Part shown: positions 10,591 through 24,501 of the stretch, piece after piece
How the letters are laid out: each line of letters opens with the position of its first letter
Numbering within the stretch: the stretch's first letter is position 1
From: a virus
Virus record (IMG/VR): IMGVR_UViG_3300044630_004385
Span: 1 to 24,501 of that record
Length of the DNA: 24,501 nt
Reading direction: 5' to 3' (one strand)
Translations under genes and position numbers: made by a program
The notes under the pieces: generated by a model
Told to the model about the DNA's origin: nothing
Databases searched by the model: none
Seen by the model: only the letters and a program-made list of their open reading frames with translations

Positions 10591-13014
10591 GTGACTGCGG
10601 TTAAGATCACCAAGTTCCTTGGGACGGCTCCGAAGAACGCTTCGGAGCTGTTGGCGGATACTGCTGCCCAGGTTGCTCGCAACAGCAAGCTATACTCCGG
10701 TGATCTTATTCCGTATCCGCGCCCTACTATCACCGCCAACACTGGCCGCGCTGGCACTATCCGCACGCTCTACGCGCTGCGAGACCCGGATACTGATGAC
10801 CTAGTTTGGCTGTCTTGGAACGATACCGTTGATATAGTTACGCCAGCGACGGACTTCATCGGTGAGCAGCGGTTCTACTACACTGGGGATGGGGTGCCGA
10901 AGGTAAGCACCTACGATCTGGCTACCCAGGGCGCGGCACCTTACCCCACCAACTACTACGAGTTGGGGCTTCCCCTCCCCACGGTTAAGCCTACCACCAC
11001 GGCAACGGCCTTTGTGGTCGCCTCGTCGGCGTCGTTTGCTCGCTCGGCTGGTAACAACGTCACCCTGGTGACTAGTGCGCCGCACAACCTAAAGTCTGGT
11101 TCGCTCATCACGGTCTCTGGATTTGCCTTCCGTACCGGCACCTACAGCCGGTCTGGTACGACCATCACGGTTACGATCACTGGCCATGGGTTGAGCAACG
11201 GCACTGATGTACTGCTACGCTTCACCTCTGGTACGGCAACCTCGAACAGCTACACCGTGACCGTGACGGGCGTGGATACCTTTACCTGCAACGACACCGC
11301 GTCAGGTTCTACGTCGGGTGATGTCAGCTGGGATATCGGGGATCTCAACACAACCGCCGAAGCGACGGTCATCAACCCCACAACGATAAGCTACTTCTCG
11401 CCCGGCCCTATCGTAGCTACCACCGCCAATACCGATGGTCGCGTGGACCTCGGTGGGCAGGTTCAGGGGCGCACCTACCTCTATACTTGGTACACAGGCT
11501 GGGAAGAGGAGTCTATCGGCTCGGCTCCGTCTGACCCGCTGTTCATCAAGGAGGGGCAGGTCGTCACCGTGGCGACCCTCCCAACTGTGCCGCCGGTAGG
11601 TAATAATTTCGTCCGTGGCATCCGCCTTTACCGCACGCTCGCTGGGACTACCGACGCCGCCTATTTCCGGCTGGCCACCCTCTGGTTCCCCAACAATGTT
11701 GCGGCTGTGTCGCGTGTGGGCAATGTATCCACGGTATCCTTCGTCTATCCACACAAGCTGTTCAAGACCGACCGGTTCAAGATCAGCGGGTGCACTGACG
11801 CCACCTTCAACATCACTGGCGGTATCGTCACTGAAGTGGTGGACCAGTACACTCTCCAGTATGCCCAGGTGGCAGCTGATGTGGCCCCGACTGTTGCGTC
11901 TGGTGATCTCTACTACGATGTGTCGGAGAACCCTCCGACCACGGCAGCGCGCTACTGGGGCGACGGTGGCGACTACTCCTTTACGGATGACTTTGACTTC
12001 CGTTCGCTAACAGGTGTCCTACCATCGTCGAACTACGATGCCCCGCCACCTGGGCTCCAGGGGCTTACCCTGATCCAGAACAACATCCTGGTGGGGTTCG
12101 TCGGGAACACGCTCTACTTCTCGGAGCCTGGGATCTTCCATGCGTGGCCTACGACATACGAGCGCCCGCTGGATAGCAATATCGTTGGGCTAGCGCCCAT
12201 CGGTGGTTCGCTCCTGGTACTTACCGAGGATTACCCGCACATCCTCTCGGGCTCTAGCCCTGCGATCATGTCGCAGTCGCGGCTATCTGCGCGCTACCCC
12301 TGCGTCAACCGCCGCAGCATCGTGGAGACCAGCTTCGGGGTGGTGTACGCCACCCATGACGGCCTCGTGCTATACTCACCTTCGTCTGCCGCGCAGCTGC
12401 TTACCCGGCTGGTCCACAGCAGCGACACCTGGAACGCGGCGCTCGACCCGTCCACTCTGGTCGGTGTATCCTATAAAGATACTTACATCGCATCTCACGC
12501 CACGGCTTCTATCGTCTTTGAGCCTGGGGTTGGGCGCAGCGAACCTACCTTTGTGGATAACGACTTTGCTTTCACAGCGGTGTGGTACGACCCTATCACC
12601 AACAACCTCTACGCAACCGCTGGCACCGCTGGTGACATCTACCAGTGGGATGATTTGGCACAGCCCAACACTACCATGTCATGGAAGTCCAAGACCTTTA
12701 TCACCAAGGACTTCACGAATGTGGGCGCGGCGCGGGTGGTGGCTGACTATACCGGCCTGCCGGGTTCGCCCTTATGGGAAGCAGTAGATATTGACTGGGA
12801 GGATGCCGATGCGCTGTGGGATGCGGCTGACCCCATAACTTTCCGGTTCTATGTAGATAAAGAGTTGATCTTTACGACTACTAGATCCAATAGCGGGGTG
12901 TTTCGCCTACCTGCTGGGTATAAGTCTGATACCTTTGAGGTTGGGTTGGATAGCCTCGTTCGGGTACGTGCGATCTACCTGGGTGGCACACCCATCAGCT
13001 TGAGGAACGCTTAA
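10591..13014 (+). CDS. Large tail (nozzle-type) virion protein
   Basis: This is an 807-residue protein starting at GTG 10591. The N-terminus (KITKFLGTAPKNASELL, then AAQVARNSKLYSGDLIPYP) is a signature I associate with large podovirus tail proteins in the position of T7 gp12, the tail nozzle. The middle and C-terminal two-thirds show repeated beta strands (TLIQNNILVGFVGNTLYFSE, then GSLLVLTEDYPHIL and FGVVYATHDGLVLYSP) suggesting a beta-propeller-like platform. Three small beta modules with an H-x-L-x-x-G core interrupt it (residues about 150-185, 185-250 and 375-435). No signal peptide or transmembrane segment is evident. The stop overlaps the next start (TAATG). The nozzle role is inferred from gene order and length. 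Confidence 0.65.
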   Translation: MTAVKITKFLGTAPKNASELLADTAAQVARNSKLYSGDLIPYPRPTITANTGRAGTIRTLYALRDPDTDDLVWLSWNDTVDIVTPATDFIGEQRFYYTGDGVPKVSTYDLATQGAAPYPTNYYELGLPLPTVKPTTTATAFVVASSASFARSAGNNVTLVTSAPHNLKSGSLITVSGFAFRTGTYSRSGTTITVTITGHGLSNGTDVLLRFTSGTATSNSYTVTVTGVDTFTCNDTASGSTSGDVSWDIGDLNTTAEATVINPTTISYFSPGPIVATTANTDGRVDLGGQVQGRTYLYTWYTGWEEESIGSAPSDPLFIKEGQVVTVATLPTVPPVGNNFVRGIRLYRTLAGTTDAAYFRLATLWFPNNVAAVSRVGNVSTVSFVYPHKLFKTDRFKISGCTDATFNITGGIVTEVVDQYTLQYAQVAADVAPTVASGDLYYDVSENPPTTAARYWGDGGDYSFTDDFDFRSLTGVLPSSNYDAPPPGLQGLTLIQNNILVGFVGNTLYFSEPGIFHAWPTTYERPLDSNIVGLAPIGGSLLVLTEDYPHILSGSSPAIMSQSRLSARYPCVNRRSIVETSFGVVYATHDGLVLYSPSSAAQLLTRLVHSSDTWNAALDPSTLVGVSYKDTYIASHATASIVFEPGVGRSEPTFVDNDFAFTAVWYDPITNNLYATAGTAGDIYQWDDLAQPNTTMSWKSKTFITKDFTNVGAARVVADYTGLPGSPLWEAVDIDWEDADALWDAADPITFRFYVDKELIFTTTRSNSGVFRLPAGYKSDTFEVGLDSLVRVRAIYLGGTPISLRNA

Positions 13015-17597: not shown

Positions 17598-20500
17598 ATG
17601 TCTGATCTTTTCTACTCTCCAGAACAGATTGCGCTTGGTCTTGAGATTTCTGGGGCGCCGCGTAGTGTCACGCAGGCGGCAGGTCTTGGTGGGCTTGCTA
17701 CCTCCACTGCGGATCAGGCTGCGTTCCAGGAGCAGGTTCTTCAACGGGTTAATGTTGGGCTGCAAGGTCTGCGGGCACCGCCCGCACCTGGAGCTTCGGC
17801 TTACTTCAACCCGACTACCAACCAGATGTTTGCCGGTGGACGGGCGTTTGATGTCCGTGATGTCGGCTCGGCGCTCCAGGCGTCGCAGGCTCTTTCCCCT
17901 TCTGAACCCCCTCCTGGCGCTGGCTGGCAGCCGCTGACCCAGCGCGGGTTTTCGGATTACGTCGCTGGCTTCTCTGAGCGCCGTGGCACTGGTGAGTTGC
18001 TGGCGCGCGGCGCGCGTGCTGCCGTTGGTGGTATCGTCGGTGGTGTTGGTCGTGGCATCGAGATGCTCGGTGCGCCCGAGACTGGTCGTGGTATTGCCGA
18101 GGTTGGTGAAGCCATCACCGGCCAGGATGAGTTCGACCGCCAGCGGTCGGCCATGATCCAGCGCAGCAACTCCACGTTCAACAACATCATTGATGCGGCC
18201 ATCGAAGGTGTTCCTTCGGTCCTCACTGGTGGTGCTGCGGCCCTTGCTGGTGGTCTTGTTGGCGGTCCTGCGGGTGCGGCTGTCGGTCTTGGCTTGGCGC
18301 GTGCGCGCACTGTTGGCGCAGTGGGCGGTCTGCTTGCCTCTAGCTTTCCACAGCAGCTGAACAGCTTCTACGAGGCGGCGCGCGACGCGCGGACCCCGGA
18401 TGGTCAACCGGCTTATGATGTTTCCAACCCGCAGGTTCAGTTGGAGATCCTGGCCGGTGCGGTGGGGACCAGCCTCCTCGACATCATCGCCCCTGGCCGT
18501 GTGGCCGGGAGCCTTTCTCGCGCCCTGACTGATGGTGTCCAGCAGGCTAGTCAGCGGTCTGTCACCGGGCTGGCACGAGCCAAGTCGGTGGGCGGTGCTG
18601 CGGCGCGTAGCGGCCTAGAAGAAGCCGGGACTGAGGCACTCCAGACGGTGGTGGAGCAGGCGCTGTTCGACCCGCAGTTCCGTAGCTTGCTGACGGCTAA
18701 CGACTGGAAGGCCCTCGCCCCCTACGTCGTCGAACAGTATGGTGAGAACGCGCTGATTGCAGCGGGTGCGGGTGCTCTGCTGGGCGCTGGCTTTGGTGGC
18801 GCGGGGCGGTTCTTCGAGACTGGGCGTGAGCCGCGCGACATCCTCCAGAGGCAGGGTCAGCAGCCTGCGGTTCCCCCTCAGCAGCAACTCCTACTGGAAG
18901 GGCCGCCGCGCCAACAGCCTCTACTGATGCTGCCCCCGCCGACGCCGCCTACGACGCCGACGCCGCCTACAGATGCTGAGATGTACGGGTTTAGTGCGGG
19001 CGCACTTGGCGACACGATCACGCCGGGCGGTATCTCCTCCATGGAGAACCCACCTGCTCAGAGTGCCATGGTGTGGAACGAGCAGCTTGGTATTTTCGTT
19101 CCTGCGCCGCCGACGCCGACCAGGAGGCCGACTGTACCGTCCTCGGAGGTTATCCCTCTTGGTGGTACGGTCGCGCCGCCGACTGAACAGTTTGGCCCCT
19201 TCGGGCGTGAGCAGTTTGGTCCCACCAGGGCGCAGCCGGTTCCGCCTCTAGCCGTAGAGCCGCAGCGCCCGCCCGTTGTCGCCCCCGAGACCTTTGTTCC
19301 TGGGCTGGAAGCCTTTCGCCGTCAGCCGCCTGCGGCACCGCCGCCGACCCAGCTGGCTGAGACCGAAGCGGGCAACCGCCTCCTGGCGCTGCGCCGTCAG
19401 CTGGAGCTTCAGCAGGCCGAAGCGCAGCGGGCTACCCAGCCGCCAGTGCGGCTGCCCACAGCAGCGGAGATGGATTACGACGCGGCACTGGCCCAGGCCG
19501 CTATGCAGCGCGAGCCGCTGAACGCTGAGGCGGTTATGACATCTCCCAACCGTGGGCTGAACAACGCACGTCGCAATCTGGTGGACCGTTTCAACGGGTT
19601 GACCGAGGCCGAGCAGGACACGGTCCTGGAGGGGTACGACAACAACCCTCTGGCGTTTGAAGACGCCGTTCGCGGTATGAACATGACGCAGGTTCGGCAG
19701 GCACAGGCGGAAATCAACCGCCTTGCTACGACGCCGCGCCCGGCACCGCGTCCCCGTCCTACCCCCGCTGTCGATCTAAGGAGACCCACTCGTGCCGCTG
19801 AAACAGGGCAAGTCGGACAAGGCCGTCTCCGCAAACGTCAGGCAGTTGATGAAGGAGGGGCGGCCCCAGAAACAGGCCGTGGCAATCGCACTCTCCGTCG
19901 CGGAGCGGGGGCGCAAGCCCAAGCCGCGCAAGAAGTAACCCCGGCACCCGCTCCTGCCCCGGCTGAGGAGGTAGCCGCCCCGCGCCCTTTAGAGGTGGCC
20001 GCCGCTCCGGTGGCGGCGGAAGCTCCGGTGGCGGCGGAAGCTCCGGTGGTAACGGCGGAAGCCGCCCCCGTGGCGGAGGTGCCAGCAGCAACCTCCGTCG
20101 CTCCCGTAGCTGAAGCGCCTACCCCGGCACCTGTCCTCACCTCCAGTGCTATGGCTGCGGCCCGCGATGCGGGCCTCACCGTGGAAGAGATGGGCGACGA
20201 GGCGAAGGTTGATCAGGCACAGCAGGGCTGGATCAAGGTTCCTGGCAGCCCGTGGCAGCAGGCTTCGGAGCAGCTTCGTAGCGAGCTGTCTGACCGGATC
20301 GAGGCACGCTCCGAAAAGGGGCAGGATGTTGGTGCCCACATGCAGGCGCTTGATCGCCTGGAGCGCCAGCTTGTCCGTGTGCCGAAGGCACCTACCAGTG
20401 CCACTGCCCCTGACAGCCCGATGTCTCGCTGGGCTTCGGTCATGGAGGATGATGGCCGGGGCTACAACTACCTCAGTCCTAAGGGCCAGCAGGAATGGGC

Positions 20501-23500
20501 AAACGCCCAACCGACGCGCACTGAAGCCGAGCGCATCGCGAAGGCAAACCCTTCGGAAGAGACGGCACGGACCATCAGCTTTATCGACGGCCTTCAGAGG
20601 AAGCTGGATAGCGGTGAGCTTGACTCGGAGCGGGTTGGGAAGATCCTGGACACTCTTGAAAGGGCTGCCAAAAGCGACAACCCGTTTGTCGCAGCAGCAG
20701 CAAAGCGGGCGGGGAACTTCTCCCTCGCGACCTGGAACACCCTGACTGGTACGCGCAACCTGGATGGGTCTGCGGTACGCCCGATGGCACCCGGTCGTGC
20801 CCGGATGCTGGTGCAAACTTTCCTGTCGAAGCTGGTAACTAAGCCAAAAGTTACGGTCGTTGCCAACCAACAGGAGTTGCAGCGGACCAACCCGGCGCTC
20901 TACGCCCAGGCCAACGCGGCTCGCCCTCAGGGCGACTTCGCCACGGCTGCGGCTGCTGGTTACTCCTTCGGTGATGGCAACGTCATCATCTTCACCGACC
21001 GTATCGCCAACGAGCAGCACCTCCGCTTCGTCCTGGCGCACGAGACCTTCGGTCACTTCGGTATGCGTGGCGTCATGCCGGGCGACCGCTTCGACGCTCT
21101 CATGGGGAGCATCTACGACACCGACCCGCAGGCCAAGGCAGCGGCTGATGCTGCCATGGAGGCACGCGGTCTCTCCAAGCCCGAAGCTGTTGAGGAATAC
21201 CTCTCCGACTACGCGGCGCTGTTGAACACCAGCACGGTCGCGCGGGTCTGGAACGCTATCAAGAACATCCTGAGCAAACTGGGCGTGCGCTTCGGTGACA
21301 CCGCCACGCGCTACTTCCTTGACCAGTCCCGTCGCTACGTTCGTGAGGGCCGCCAGGGTGTGACCTTCGATGCGGAAGCAGTCGCGCAGCGCCTACACGC
21401 GGTGGAGACGGGTTCGGCTGGCACTGGCCGTTACAGCCCCGAGGCTGCCTTCTCGGTAAGCTCTCGCGCACAGGTTATGATCGACGGTCTCGCCACTGGC
21501 TATAAGAGCCTTGACGATGTGATGGCCAACATCGTGCGGGCCGGTAAGGGTTTCCGTGGTCAGTTCGACCGGTTCAAGGCTGATGTCCTGAGCCTCTTCA
21601 ACTTCCGGGCGATGGATAACCCTTGGCTATTTGAGCTGAACAAGCTGATCGGGCTGATGAACACGACCGCCATGTCGGTCAAGACGAACATCAACGAGTT
21701 CCTGCGCCCGCTCTACAACATGGACGCCGCCTCGCAGATCCGCATCTCGCAGTTGATGTACGATGTGCGTCAGATGAAGGATGCAGAGTTCAACTCTAGG
21801 AAGCTCCCGAAAGGAAAACTCTATCAAGTCGATAACGAGGGCAACCTCGTACCCAACAAACCCTTGGAGGAGAAGCTCTTCCAGGAAGGTCTGCTTACGC
21901 TGGAGCAGATCCGTGACGGTGTGACCTACAAGTACACCATCGAAGGGACTGACGGGAAACCGCAGACCATCGAGCGCAAGATCGAGGGTCGGCCTAAGTT
22001 CACCGAAGAAGAGTACGCAGCCTATGTGCGTACCCGCCGAGCAGTGGCCAACGTGGAACTGGAGGTTCTGCGCGCCCTCTACAGCGACTTGCTCCAGAAC
22101 CGGACGGTGACGAACCGCGAGGTCAGCCGTCTCATCAAGGGCAAGAAGGGTATCCTGGACACCAAGGATAAGGCGTTCGTCCGCGAGTACGCTGATAAGT
22201 TCCAGGCGTTCTACACGCAGAACGCTGAGGTCGATGCTAGTGGTGTGTATGTGCTGGATACGGCTTCCACACAGAAGGCACGGAAGTTCCTGGAGGCTGT
22301 GAACGCAGCCTTTATCTGGCGCGACACAAAGAACCTTGACCCTGCCCGCGAGGAAGCCGTGCGGGCGTTCTTCCCGGATAAGACCCAGGCTGATGACTTC
22401 ATAGCCAAGCTGAACGACACACGCTCGCGCCGCGATAAGATATCCGACGCCAACCGCCTGAACCTCCAGACTGCCGTGGAACAGCTGGTGCTCAACGAGA
22501 TCGACTATGGGCGGAAAGAGGCGCGCATCAAGGAGAACATCGCGACCGGCTACATCCCGGTATATCGCGAAGGTATGTACCAGATGCGCCTGCGGGCGTT
22601 CATCAATGGGCAGCCTGTAGATGTAAAGCATACACACAAGGATCTGCTGGCCTATTCCCAGTTCGATAACCCGCAAGACGCACTGGATATGGCCACGGCG
22701 TTTAACAACGACCTAAAGGATAAGACCTTTACGCTGCTGGTTAGGGACTCTGCCGGTAACTACTCACCTAAGGAAGTGACCCTGGTTGCCGATACTGGCA
22801 CGGTCATCACCAATGCCATGACCGAACCTGGGTTTGATCTGGATAACTTTCTCTACGGTATGCAGATCCTCGGCCAGAAGCTCGATCCAAAGGTGATGGA
22901 GCGGCTGATTATCCGCACGACCAACCACAACAATGCGCGGCGCGGGCGACTGAAGTTCTCCCAAACCCCTGGCTACGACAACACGCAGGGTATCGTCGCC
23001 ATCTCTCGGCACATCGAGAAGCAGGCGTCTGCGGTGGCTCGTGCGATCACCCGGCAGTCTGTGCGTGAGATGATGGACCTGGGGAATGAGAACTCCAGGG
23101 CGATGCTGAATGGTGACAAGGCAAACGTGGCTAGGCTGCGGGCTGAGTACGACCGCATCAACGCAGACCCCACCTCTACGGCGGATGCGAAGGCTGACAT
23201 CCGTAGCCGCTACACCTTTGCGGTGGCCATGGATCGCAAGACCAACCCGCAGGGGCAGCCCAGCAAGGCCAACCAGTATTACAACGAAGGTGCCAAGGCC
23301 ATCGACTTCCTTGATGGTAGTAAGTTTGTGGATGAGTCTAACTTCGGTGCTGGCCCCATCGCTTCGCGTGTGCGCGCCTATACCAGCATGTTGCAGTTGG
23401 GCGGCTCTATCGCACAGGGCGTGCTGAACCTGCTGAGCATCGAGACCAACTGGAAGCCGTACATGGCGTCCTTCAATCAGCGGAATGGCTTTGGCGCTGG

Positions 23501-24501
23501 GTTCAACTACTTCACGGTCACGGCTGAGTATAACCGCGCGTTCATGAAGATCGGTGCTCCGGGCATGACGAACTTCGCCATGAACGAAGCCAACTTCTAC
23601 GATGCTGGGGCCGAGCCTACTGACAAAACGCTGCTCAAGGACTGGAAGCCGGGCATCGCACAAAGCAAGGCACTCCAGACTAAGTATGGAATGACTGCCG
23701 AGGAGGCACGGGTTATCGCCCGTGAGATCCGCGAAGGTAAGCTGATCCCGGCACAGTCGAACGCCATGACAGCTACAGCCCGTGGCTACAGCACCAATAA
23801 GTGGGCGCTGAAGTTCATGGATACTTGGATGGCACCCTTCAACCTGTCCGAACAGGCTGCTCGTCGCGCTGCCTTCTTGTCTGCCTACCGGCTATTCTAC
23901 AACCGTGGCATCGGTGCTGGGATGGACGCGAAGAAGGCGTCTGAGAGGGCGCGTGAAGAAGCCGTCAGGTCTCTGGACCTGACGCTCGGTGAGTACTCCA
24001 TGATGAACCGCCCTGCCTTCTGGCGCGGCGGGATGCAGTCCTTCCTGTATATGTACAAGGCATACCCCACCACGGTGGTCCAGCTGCTGGCGCGTTTGGA
24101 TCGCCCCGCTCAGCTGAGCGCGCTGGCCGGTCTGTGGCTGCTGGCGGGGATGTCTGGCCTGCCCTTCGCGGAGGATTTGGAAGATCTGATCGACACCCTG
24201 TCCCAGAAACTGGGCCTGGGCCAAGGTAGCATCCGGGCTGAGCTGATCCGCCATATCGAAAGTATCGCGCCGGGTATGTCGGCACCGCTGCTGCGTGGTC
24301 TTATGAATGAGATCGGGTTGGCTGACGTAGCTTCCCGGACTGGGGTGGGCAACCTCCTCCCTGGCACCGACATGTTCCTAGCAGGCGCGGACCAGACCCG
24401 TGCGATGATGGACATCCTTGGTCCAGCCGCTGGCTTCCTGGGAGGCGCTCTCGGGATGGCCACCAATCTGGTGTCCTACCCGTTCTCCTCGACTAAGACC
24501 T
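17598..24501 (+). CDS. Giant polyvalent (PLxRFG-type) virion protein, partial at the 3' end
   Basis: ATG 17598 follows GAAGGACAGG. The frame stays open to the window edge (at least 2301 residues). Residues about 130-160, 205-258 and 383-410 are Gly/Ala-rich and possibly membrane-active; EEAGTEALQTVVEQALF precedes the last. Residues about 415-860 are a Pro/Ala/Gln linker that includes APVAAE repeats. A metallopeptidase-like segment has GDGNVIIFTDRIANEQH and LAHETFGHFGMRG, with HExxGH at 1148-1153. The C-terminal part (FNLSEQAARRAAFLSAYRLF, FLYMYKAYPTTVVQLLARL, GLPFAEDLEDLIDTLSQKLG, GVGNLLPGTDMF) resembles phage PLxRFG proteins. After gp14/gp15-like genes, it occupies the T7 gp16 place and is probably ejected with DNA. 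The zincin site is non-canonical, so activity is uncertain. Confidence 0.75.
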   Translation, partial: MSDLFYSPEQIALGLEISGAPRSVTQAAGLGGLATSTADQAAFQEQVLQRVNVGLQGLRAPPAPGASAYFNPTTNQMFAGGRAFDVRDVGSALQASQALSPSEPPPGAGWQPLTQRGFSDYVAGFSERRGTGELLARGARAAVGGIVGGVGRGIEMLGAPETGRGIAEVGEAITGQDEFDRQRSAMIQRSNSTFNNIIDAAIEGVPSVLTGGAAALAGGLVGGPAGAAVGLGLARARTVGAVGGLLASSFPQQLNSFYEAARDARTPDGQPAYDVSNPQVQLEILAGAVGTSLLDIIAPGRVAGSLSRALTDGVQQASQRSVTGLARAKSVGGAAARSGLEEAGTEALQTVVEQALFDPQFRSLLTANDWKALAPYVVEQYGENALIAAGAGALLGAGFGGAGRFFETGREPRDILQRQGQQPAVPPQQQLLLEGPPRQQPLLMLPPPTPPTTPTPPTDAEMYGFSAGALGDTITPGGISSMENPPAQSAMVWNEQLGIFVPAPPTPTRRPTVPSSEVIPLGGTVAPPTEQFGPFGREQFGPTRAQPVPPLAVEPQRPPVVAPETFVPGLEAFRRQPPAAPPPTQLAETEAGNRLLALRRQLELQQAEAQRATQPPVRLPTAAEMDYDAALAQAAMQREPLNAEAVMTSPNRGLNNARRNLVDRFNGLTEAEQDTVLEGYDNNPLAFEDAVRGMNMTQVRQAQAEINRLATTPRPAPRPRPTPAVDLRRPTRAAETGQVGQGRLRKRQAVDEGGAAPETGRGNRTLRRGAGAQAQAAQEVTPAPAPAPAEEVAAPRPLEVAAAPVAAEAPVAAEAPVVTAEAAPVAEVPAATSVAPVAEAPTPAPVLTSSAMAAARDAGLTVEEMGDEAKVDQAQQGWIKVPGSPWQQASEQLRSELSDRIEARSEKGQDVGAHMQALDRLERQLVRVPKAPTSATAPDSPMSRWASVMEDDGRGYNYLSPKGQQEWANAQPTRTEAERIAKANPSEETARTISFIDGLQRKLDSGELDSERVGKILDTLERAAKSDNPFVAAAAKRAGNFSLATWNTLTGTRNLDGSAVRPMAPGRARMLVQTFLSKLVTKPKVTVVANQQELQRTNPALYAQANAARPQGDFATAAAAGYSFGDGNVIIFTDRIANEQHLRFVLAHETFGHFGMRGVMPGDRFDALMGSIYDTDPQAKAAADAAMEARGLSKPEAVEEYLSDYAALLNTSTVARVWNAIKNILSKLGVRFGDTATRYFLDQSRRYVREGRQGVTFDAEAVAQRLHAVETGSAGTGRYSPEAAFSVSSRAQVMIDGLATGYKSLDDVMANIVRAGKGFRGQFDRFKADVLSLFNFRAMDNPWLFELNKLIGLMNTTAMSVKTNINEFLRPLYNMDAASQIRISQLMYDVRQMKDAEFNSRKLPKGKLYQVDNEGNLVPNKPLEEKLFQEGLLTLEQIRDGVTYKYTIEGTDGKPQTIERKIEGRPKFTEEEYAAYVRTRRAVANVELEVLRALYSDLLQNRTVTNREVSRLIKGKKGILDTKDKAFVREYADKFQAFYTQNAEVDASGVYVLDTASTQKARKFLEAVNAAFIWRDTKNLDPAREEAVRAFFPDKTQADDFIAKLNDTRSRRDKISDANRLNLQTAVEQLVLNEIDYGRKEARIKENIATGYIPVYREGMYQMRLRAFINGQPVDVKHTHKDLLAYSQFDNPQDALDMATAFNNDLKDKTFTLLVRDSAGNYSPKEVTLVADTGTVITNAMTEPGFDLDNFLYGMQILGQKLDPKVMERLIIRTTNHNNARRGRLKFSQTPGYDNTQGIVAISRHIEKQASAVARAITRQSVREMMDLGNENSRAMLNGDKANVARLRAEYDRINADPTSTADAKADIRSRYTFAVAMDRKTNPQGQPSKANQYYNEGAKAIDFLDGSKFVDESNFGAGPIASRVRAYTSMLQLGGSIAQGVLNLLSIETNWKPYMASFNQRNGFGAGFNYFTVTAEYNRAFMKIGAPGMTNFAMNEANFYDAGAEPTDKTLLKDWKPGIAQSKALQTKYGMTAEEARVIAREIREGKLIPAQSNAMTATARGYSTNKWALKFMDTWMAPFNLSEQAARRAAFLSAYRLFYNRGIGAGMDAKKASERAREEAVRSLDLTLGEYSMMNRPAFWRGGMQSFLYMYKAYPTTVVQLLARLDRPAQLSALAGLWLLAGMSGLPFAEDLEDLIDTLSQKLGLGQGSIRAELIRHIESIAPGMSAPLLRGLMNEIGLADVASRTGVGNLLPGTDMFLAGADQTRAMMDILGPAAGFLGGALGMATNLVSYPFSSTKT
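19777..19784 (+). promoter_or_regulatory. Strong internal Shine-Dalgarno for the nested gene
   Basis: TAAGGAGA lies within the giant gene's coding sequence (frame GAT-CTA-AGG-AGA). It is seven bases before a GTG in a different frame. The AAGGAG core and spacing are near-ideal for ribosome binding, and a TAA precedes it in the nested gene's own frame. This makes accidental occurrence less likely and points to real initiation at 19792. Confidence 0.6.
19792..19938 (+). CDS. Nested small basic phage protein (48 aa) in an alternate frame
   Basis: This complete frame runs from GTG 19792 to TAA 19936-19938, shifted by one base relative to the surrounding giant gene. The product starts MPLKQGKSDKAVSANVRQLM and continues KEGRPQKQAVAIALSVAE, ending in a basic RGRKPKPRKK tail. 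From memory, this pattern (P-L-K-x-G-K-S, then an S-x-N-x-x-x-x-M helix, then G-x-P-Q-K-Q-A-V-A-I-A-L-S) recurs in short stand-alone proteins of many phages and prophages, with unknown function. A strong Shine-Dalgarno lies at 19777-19784. By my count it has about 14 Lys/Arg against 3 Asp/Glu, which suggests nucleic-acid or virion association. The giant protein's own residues here (about 732-780) are an Arg/Gly/Ala-rich linker, as expected for overprinting. Confidence 0.7.
   Translation: MPLKQGKSDKAVSANVRQLMKEGRPQKQAVAIALSVAERGRKPKPRKK
20004..20060 (+). repeat. 18-base in-frame minisatellite in the giant gene
   Basis: Two identical 18-base copies (20004-20021 and 20022-20039) and a third diverged copy encode the hexapeptide A-P-V-A-A-E about three times in a Pro/Ala linker. 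The perfect identity of the first two copies suggests recent slippage. The length is a multiple of three, so changes in copy number would alter linker length without shifting the frame. Confidence 0.75.

Follow-up and report, generated by a model that had tools for sequence, protein, structure and literature searches.

A small phrog_2423 gene nested in the +1 frame of a giant phage late gene, and the recurrence of its slot in other phages

The giant gene and the frame within it

The window analysed here is a stretch of 24,501 nucleotides of viral DNA (IMG/VR record IMGVR_UViG_3300044630_004385), a 24.5 kb record that is probably a fragment. Its late module comprises structural proteins, tail fibre-like proteins and a phrog_511 internal virion protein, followed by the open reading frame of a giant protein. 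The features of interest are as follows.

10591..13014, + strand: internal virion protein gene (phrog_511), upstream of the giant gene
17598..24500, + strand: host giant gene, at least 2301 aa, open at its 3' end and running off the window
19698..20102, + strand: Ala/Pro-rich linker with few hydrophobic residues (giant residues 701-835), housing the nested gene
19777..19784, + strand: Shine-Dalgarno sequence TAAGGAGA, 7 nt 5' of the nested GTG at 19792
19792..19938, + strand: nested small gene of phrog_2423, GTG start, 48 codons, TAA stop, 48 aa, pI 11.5

Because the phrog_511 gene precedes it on the same strand, the giant can be assigned to the late structural or ejection module. The giant itself consists of a conserved N-terminal part (residues 1-420) and a C-terminal part from about residue 814, with a variable linker between them. 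Its C-terminal part matches phrog_11358, its PHROG matches are only to families of unknown function, and no Pfam domain was matched in it, so that the label “polyvalent” given to it in the original prediction is not borne out. Polyvalent proteins (PMC5512222) share with the window giant the character of a giant late-module protein, but the latter is without recognisable enzymatic or effector Pfam domains; a DarB-like PHROG match was seen in 2 of the 18 giants and other host proteins examined. The linker also contains, just 3' of the nested gene, a perfect 18-base tandem repeat of 2.6 copies (window 20004-20049) that encodes Val-Ala-Ala-Glu-Ala-Pro in the giant frame.

The small frame stands at +1 relative to the giant frame (17598-24500), on the same strand and entirely inside it. 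The 48-codon frame with its Shine-Dalgarno sequence, seven-base spacing, start and stop was found where the original prediction had put it, and an initiation signal at 19792 (TAAGGAGA and GTG), the lack of which had been named beforehand as counting against the gene, is present. Among the 109 ATG and GTG codons that the giant gene has in its +1 frame, this Shine-Dalgarno sequence ranks in the best 2%, and the TAA that it contains at 19777 is an in-frame stop of the small frame, five codons 5' of the GTG. The length of the frame was rejected as evidence: when this GC-rich giant was shuffled synonymously 300 times, a +1 open reading frame of at least 48 codons arose every time, and shuffled versions of most of the other hosts tested likewise yield +1 frames that are as long or longer. 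A length of 48 codons is compatible with chance; the homology of the product and the constraint on it are not.

The small protein family and the frame under constraint

The nested product matches phrog_2423 with an E value of 4.4e-19, residues 1-45 aligning with positions 1-45 of the 52 in the profile, and shares with the family the MPLK start, the PQKQAVAIAL helix and the basic tail over the whole conserved length. All residues invariant in a 26-member alignment (M1, P2, L3, G6, K10, S13, N15, P25 and K27-I32) are present in it, and it is predicted to form a two-helix hairpin (residues 9-22 and 26-39) followed by the basic tail. The resemblance to a recurrent short phage protein, which the original prediction had proposed, is thereby borne out as membership of phrog_2423. 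Membership of Pfam DUF6496 (PF20106) was considered and rejected, the score being 10.7 bits (E 0.7) against a gathering cut-off of 24 bits, and no DUF6496 match at E 0.01 was found among the members of set A2.

Relatives of the nested product occur in 182 phage records and in hundreds of IMG/VR contigs, and the majority of those inspected are stand-alone genes. Homologues beyond the overlap, which the original prediction needed, are therefore plentiful, and the inner gene, with hundreds of relatives, does not qualify as an overprinted gene formed de novo. In the annotated phages inspected, phrog_2423 members are stand-alone genes, whereas the window copy sits inside another gene. Head and late modules are frequent locations of the stand-alone copies, some of which lie near head genes; the Pbunavirus copy stands behind a head morphogenesis gene and is annotated as “virion protein”. 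Other copies are found in the tRNA cluster of phiCbK and behind a tRNA nucleotidyltransferase gene (L323), so the role of the protein need not involve a giant. Of 17 GC-rich stand-alone copies, 6 are already open in the frame needed by a giant, which would make it easy for one to be captured, whether by fusion or by being inserted into a linker. Both this small family and the second one described below are broad, and most of their members stand alone; of the two readings, that of the inner gene is therefore probably the older and the passage of the giant across it the newer.

The two readings of the overlap can be told apart by the codon positions at which relatives differ, the wobble position of the small gene being codon position 1 of the giant. 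Between the window and its closest relative, L001, a codon alignment gives 3, 3 and 15 differences at positions 1, 2 and 3 of the small frame. Across 13 disjoint pairs from several groups the differences in the overlap number 144:58:48 at giant positions 1:2:3, against shares of.285/.216/.499 in the giant flanks, and 22 further pairs give 296:189:147 against.286/.201/.514. The chi-square P values of 3e-27 and 2e-44 for these two comparisons treat differences as independent and are indicative only, the direction being the same in nearly all pairs; the second set shares some records with the contigs of the first, so the two are not fully independent. In 12 of the 13 pairs, L242/L250 being the exception, the small protein is better conserved than the host flanks, and in most pairs the small proteins are 88-98% identical where the flanks are 52-91% identical. 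Elemovirus types A and F have 5 differences between them over 5.8 kb; four of these fall within the 129-nt overlap, and 3 of the 4 are silent in the small frame. The check on synonymous-site constraint that had been suggested thus came out in favour of the gene, with differences concentrated at the small-frame wobble position in a reversal of the pattern in the flanks. The nested frame is the constrained one, and the frame of the giant is the passenger in the overlap.

Recurrence of the slot in other phages

In L001 a phrog_2423 gene is nested in a homologous giant. The giants of L001 and the window are 58% identical over residues 1-420 and 67% identical from about residue 814 on; between these parts they can be aligned only across and just around the overlap. 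Searching with the single giant sequence gave no matches, whereas a scan with an alignment of the C-terminal parts of the two giants worked, returning ten further giants at 38-52% identity. In L160-L165, L167 and L168 a phrog_2423 gene is nested at the same place and at +1, with a GTG or ATG start and the stop kept, and a Shine-Dalgarno-like site is present in all scored nested relatives of the window's giant group. No copy other than the nested one was found in the records of L001, L160, L164, L168, L019, L022 and L071. The relatives that have retained the giant have the nested frame as well, where frame-disrupting changes would have spoken against the gene. These comparisons strongly support the view that 19792-19938 is a real gene nested in another; the nesting is not peculiar to this phage, since the arrangement is recurrent and two small families use the slot. 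One viral contig (G011) carries two giant open frames, each with a nested phrog_2423 gene (L061 481 and L325 39107).

The initiation signal is not uniform. Strong Shine-Dalgarno sequences precede the nested gene in the window, L001, L165, L168 and L027, where they rank among the top 1-2.4% of the +1 starts of their gene; such a sequence is absent before the nested gene in AT-rich giants, and likewise in L022, L071 and L088. In nested genes of the AT-rich and scaffold-position groups that have no Shine-Dalgarno sequence (for example L205, L208, L228, L217 and L242) an in-frame stop often stands about five codons before the ATG.

Three homologous giants that have no phrog_2423 gene (L166, L169 and L234) carry, in the same slot and the same +1 frame, a gene for a protein beginning MPFKS.AQRR. 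These proteins match phrog_1375, a PHROG of unknown function, weakly (E 5e-4 and 0.05), and proteins of this kind occupy the slot in most other giants too. No profile similarity between phrog_2423 and the MPFKS.AQRR family was detected (hhalign probability 2%), although both share an MP[LF]K start, two short predicted helices and then a basic tail. Neither small protein gave a meaningful PDB match by sequence or fold, and no function is indicated by fold or domain. In a tree of the giant C-terminal parts, a quick tree with long outgroup branches, the phrog_2423 carriers form one clade (SH-aLRT 99) within the MPFKS carriers, so that the simplest history is a single replacement in the slot. The slot may nevertheless have been refilled more than once, as the L160-type small protein has a 15-residue insertion that it shares with stand-alone genes on contigs of betaproteobacterial genome assemblies.

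Other small frames were observed in individual giants. At L350:6351 a third kind of small basic open reading frame lies at +1, at residue 1188 of a 4418-codon giant (MIRKLPNKNLWRLVSKSGKNLGEFKSRKAAEKRERQV...), and matches 107 phage records in part, mostly along 25 residues at E about 4e-3; judged by this frame, the slot may hold yet another family. At L388:6561 a divergent MPFK small gene is nested at +1 with two further protein-like +1 frames nearby (7599 and 7791), and this single giant possibly contains several nested genes.

When the second family was scanned for, 32 of 76 sites lay within a larger open frame, and the +1 arrangement was always included. The host genes comprise the group of the window, a large AT-rich group that includes Elemovirus, two more groups of giants, the single L027, and a gene of a second kind, roughly 400 codons long, that lies between the portal and a capsid-type virion protein and so occupies the scaffold position. 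In cultured Elemovirus the nested gene, which starts with ATG and encodes 42 residues, lies in a giant gene of about 3,690 codons annotated as “structural protein”, and is itself unannotated in the records inspected. Two records (L209:3472 and L210:4828) with an MPFKS gene nested in a terminase large subunit frame were set aside: terminase homology starts from residue 159, behind the small gene at residue 83, and the upstream open frame may therefore be fortuitous.

A less biased test is offered by 80 giants that were retrieved by their own HExxH peptidase region, the small genes being sought afterwards. Fifty-two have a nested small gene, 14 have one adjacent (1-11 nt 3' of the giant stop), 2 have one elsewhere, and in 12 no gene of the two families was recognised in or behind the giant, so that the small gene is not obligatory. 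Grouped at 90% identity, the giants fall into 58 clusters (39 nested only, 6 adjacent only, 11 with none, 2 mixed). The offset was +1 in all 51 of 51 scored nested hits and in two extra weak ones. In three giants that have no nested gene of the main families, other small basic genes stand right behind the stop (L343:14879, L355:16005 and L350:16084; MPF[RK]K.G.NKNVSPSG..., MPKDACYKKVKAKYKV...).

Profile comparison by hhalign relates giant groups 1 and 4 (99.6%) and probably groups 3 and 4 (82.5%), and L296 links group B in part to a group 4 giant. Homology among all giant groups was not upheld, and no relation of L027 was found in these profile comparisons. These relations are also compatible with a single ancient origin in giants and an independent one for the gene in scaffold position.

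Interpretation and significance

We think it probable that the small gene is older than its setting, lies at +1 in the linker of the giant, is internally initiated and serves as an assembly or ejection partner of the giant. Ribosomes would start at the nested Shine-Dalgarno sequence and GTG within the mRNA of the giant and would produce a 48-residue basic helical-hairpin protein, and the segment of the giant read across the nested gene would be a tolerant linker. An independent start codon alone would not fix the ratio of this product to the giant. The stand-alone copies in head and late modules, together with the adjacency of small genes to giants, favour a partner in late assembly or ejection, most likely of the giant itself or of the head that packs it, and the same or an interchangeable small basic protein would sit in the slot or directly behind other giants of the kind. 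Homology, conservation, constraint on the small frame, the recurring slot, the exchange of families in it and the linkage with giant genes are observed; internal initiation, a role in late morphogenesis and the partnership with the giant are what we infer. There is perhaps an even chance that, more generally, the giant late proteins of diverse phages have a dedicated small basic partner encoded in the +1 slot or immediately behind the giant, that the slot acts as a cassette for equivalent but non-homologous proteins, and that the linker has been shaped by the out-of-frame reading of the partner gene.

The small gene could instead be real and expressed and have found in the linker of the giant a safe landing place while serving elsewhere, with no functional tie between the two. 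The use of the slot by two families with no detectable similarity would suit such an arrangement, as would the small gene in the scaffold-position host and the several contexts of the stand-alone copies. Against it, a copy that is not nested is usually the very next gene behind the giant (14 of 80, with only 2 elsewhere), which suggests that co-expression matters, and the two families have their layout in common; we regard a tie-free lodging as possible but rather unlikely. Capture of a stand-alone gene by read-through, with translation since lost and conservation reflecting only its recency, would be easy to begin, given the open host frames of the stand-alone copies, and L337 resembles a decayed copy. 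The high identity of the small proteins relative to the flanks, the wobble-biased change, and the conservation of the gene, with start and stop retained, in dozens of diverged giants make such a relic very improbable.

A strong Shine-Dalgarno-like site can stimulate ribosomal slippage, and the one in the window could thus promote a programmed +1 frameshift whose product would be an N-terminal portion of the giant ending in a basic tail. The constant +1 offset might seem to point the same way; it was rejected as evidence because in the window and L019, though not in L027 and L160, the residues of the small protein nearly exclude the other offset, which helps to explain the constancy. Conservation sets in precisely at the start codon, just as it does in the stand-alone genes, and the in-frame TAA at 19777 means that slippage in the window would have to fall within five codons, so that a frameshift is scarcely likely. 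Least credible of all is selection on the overlap only as part of the giant, with the other frame as a by-product. Close relatives do also resemble each other fairly well in the host-frame translation of the overlap, but within the overlap it is the wobble position of the giant that varies least and its first position that varies most, the reverse of the flanks, and synonymous resampling of the giant codons yields a mean of 26% and a maximum of 50% identity to the small protein. The reading in which an older small gene is started within the giant's message and partners it accordingly remains the one that we prefer.

Embedded genes are a known kind, of which Rz1 is an instance: in phage lambda, Rz1 is a complete gene lying out of frame within Rz, with its own start, and the two act jointly in lysis. 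The window likewise has a complete out-of-frame gene within a gene, with its own start, but here the inner gene comes from free-standing families, one of which has taken the place of the other, and the outer is a giant late gene. We know of no other nested genes that recur in a same-frame slot with such family exchange. Overprinted viral genes (PMC8227390) are similar in that one stretch of DNA specifies two proteins; overprinting adds the inner frame as the new gene, whereas the inner gene of the window belongs to a broad stand-alone family and it is the reading of the giant across it that appears newer. In the open-access literature, which leaves subscription papers largely uncovered, we found no paper on the motifs of the small families, their PHROG numbers or the slot. 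Embedded genes are held to be rare in Caudoviricetes, Rz/Rz1 being among the best examples, and annotators are urged to record them only with caution (PMC8785237), so a nested gene such as this is easily missed.

Dozens of diverged phages hide a small gene at this one place, which speaks for a conserved partnership overlooked by gene finders. Two common families of phage proteins are linked with giant proteins of the ejection type and with the scaffold position, and their role can be tested in a culturable phage. The arrangement also indicates a route to gene overlap in which it is the larger gene, not the smaller, that gains the new reading.
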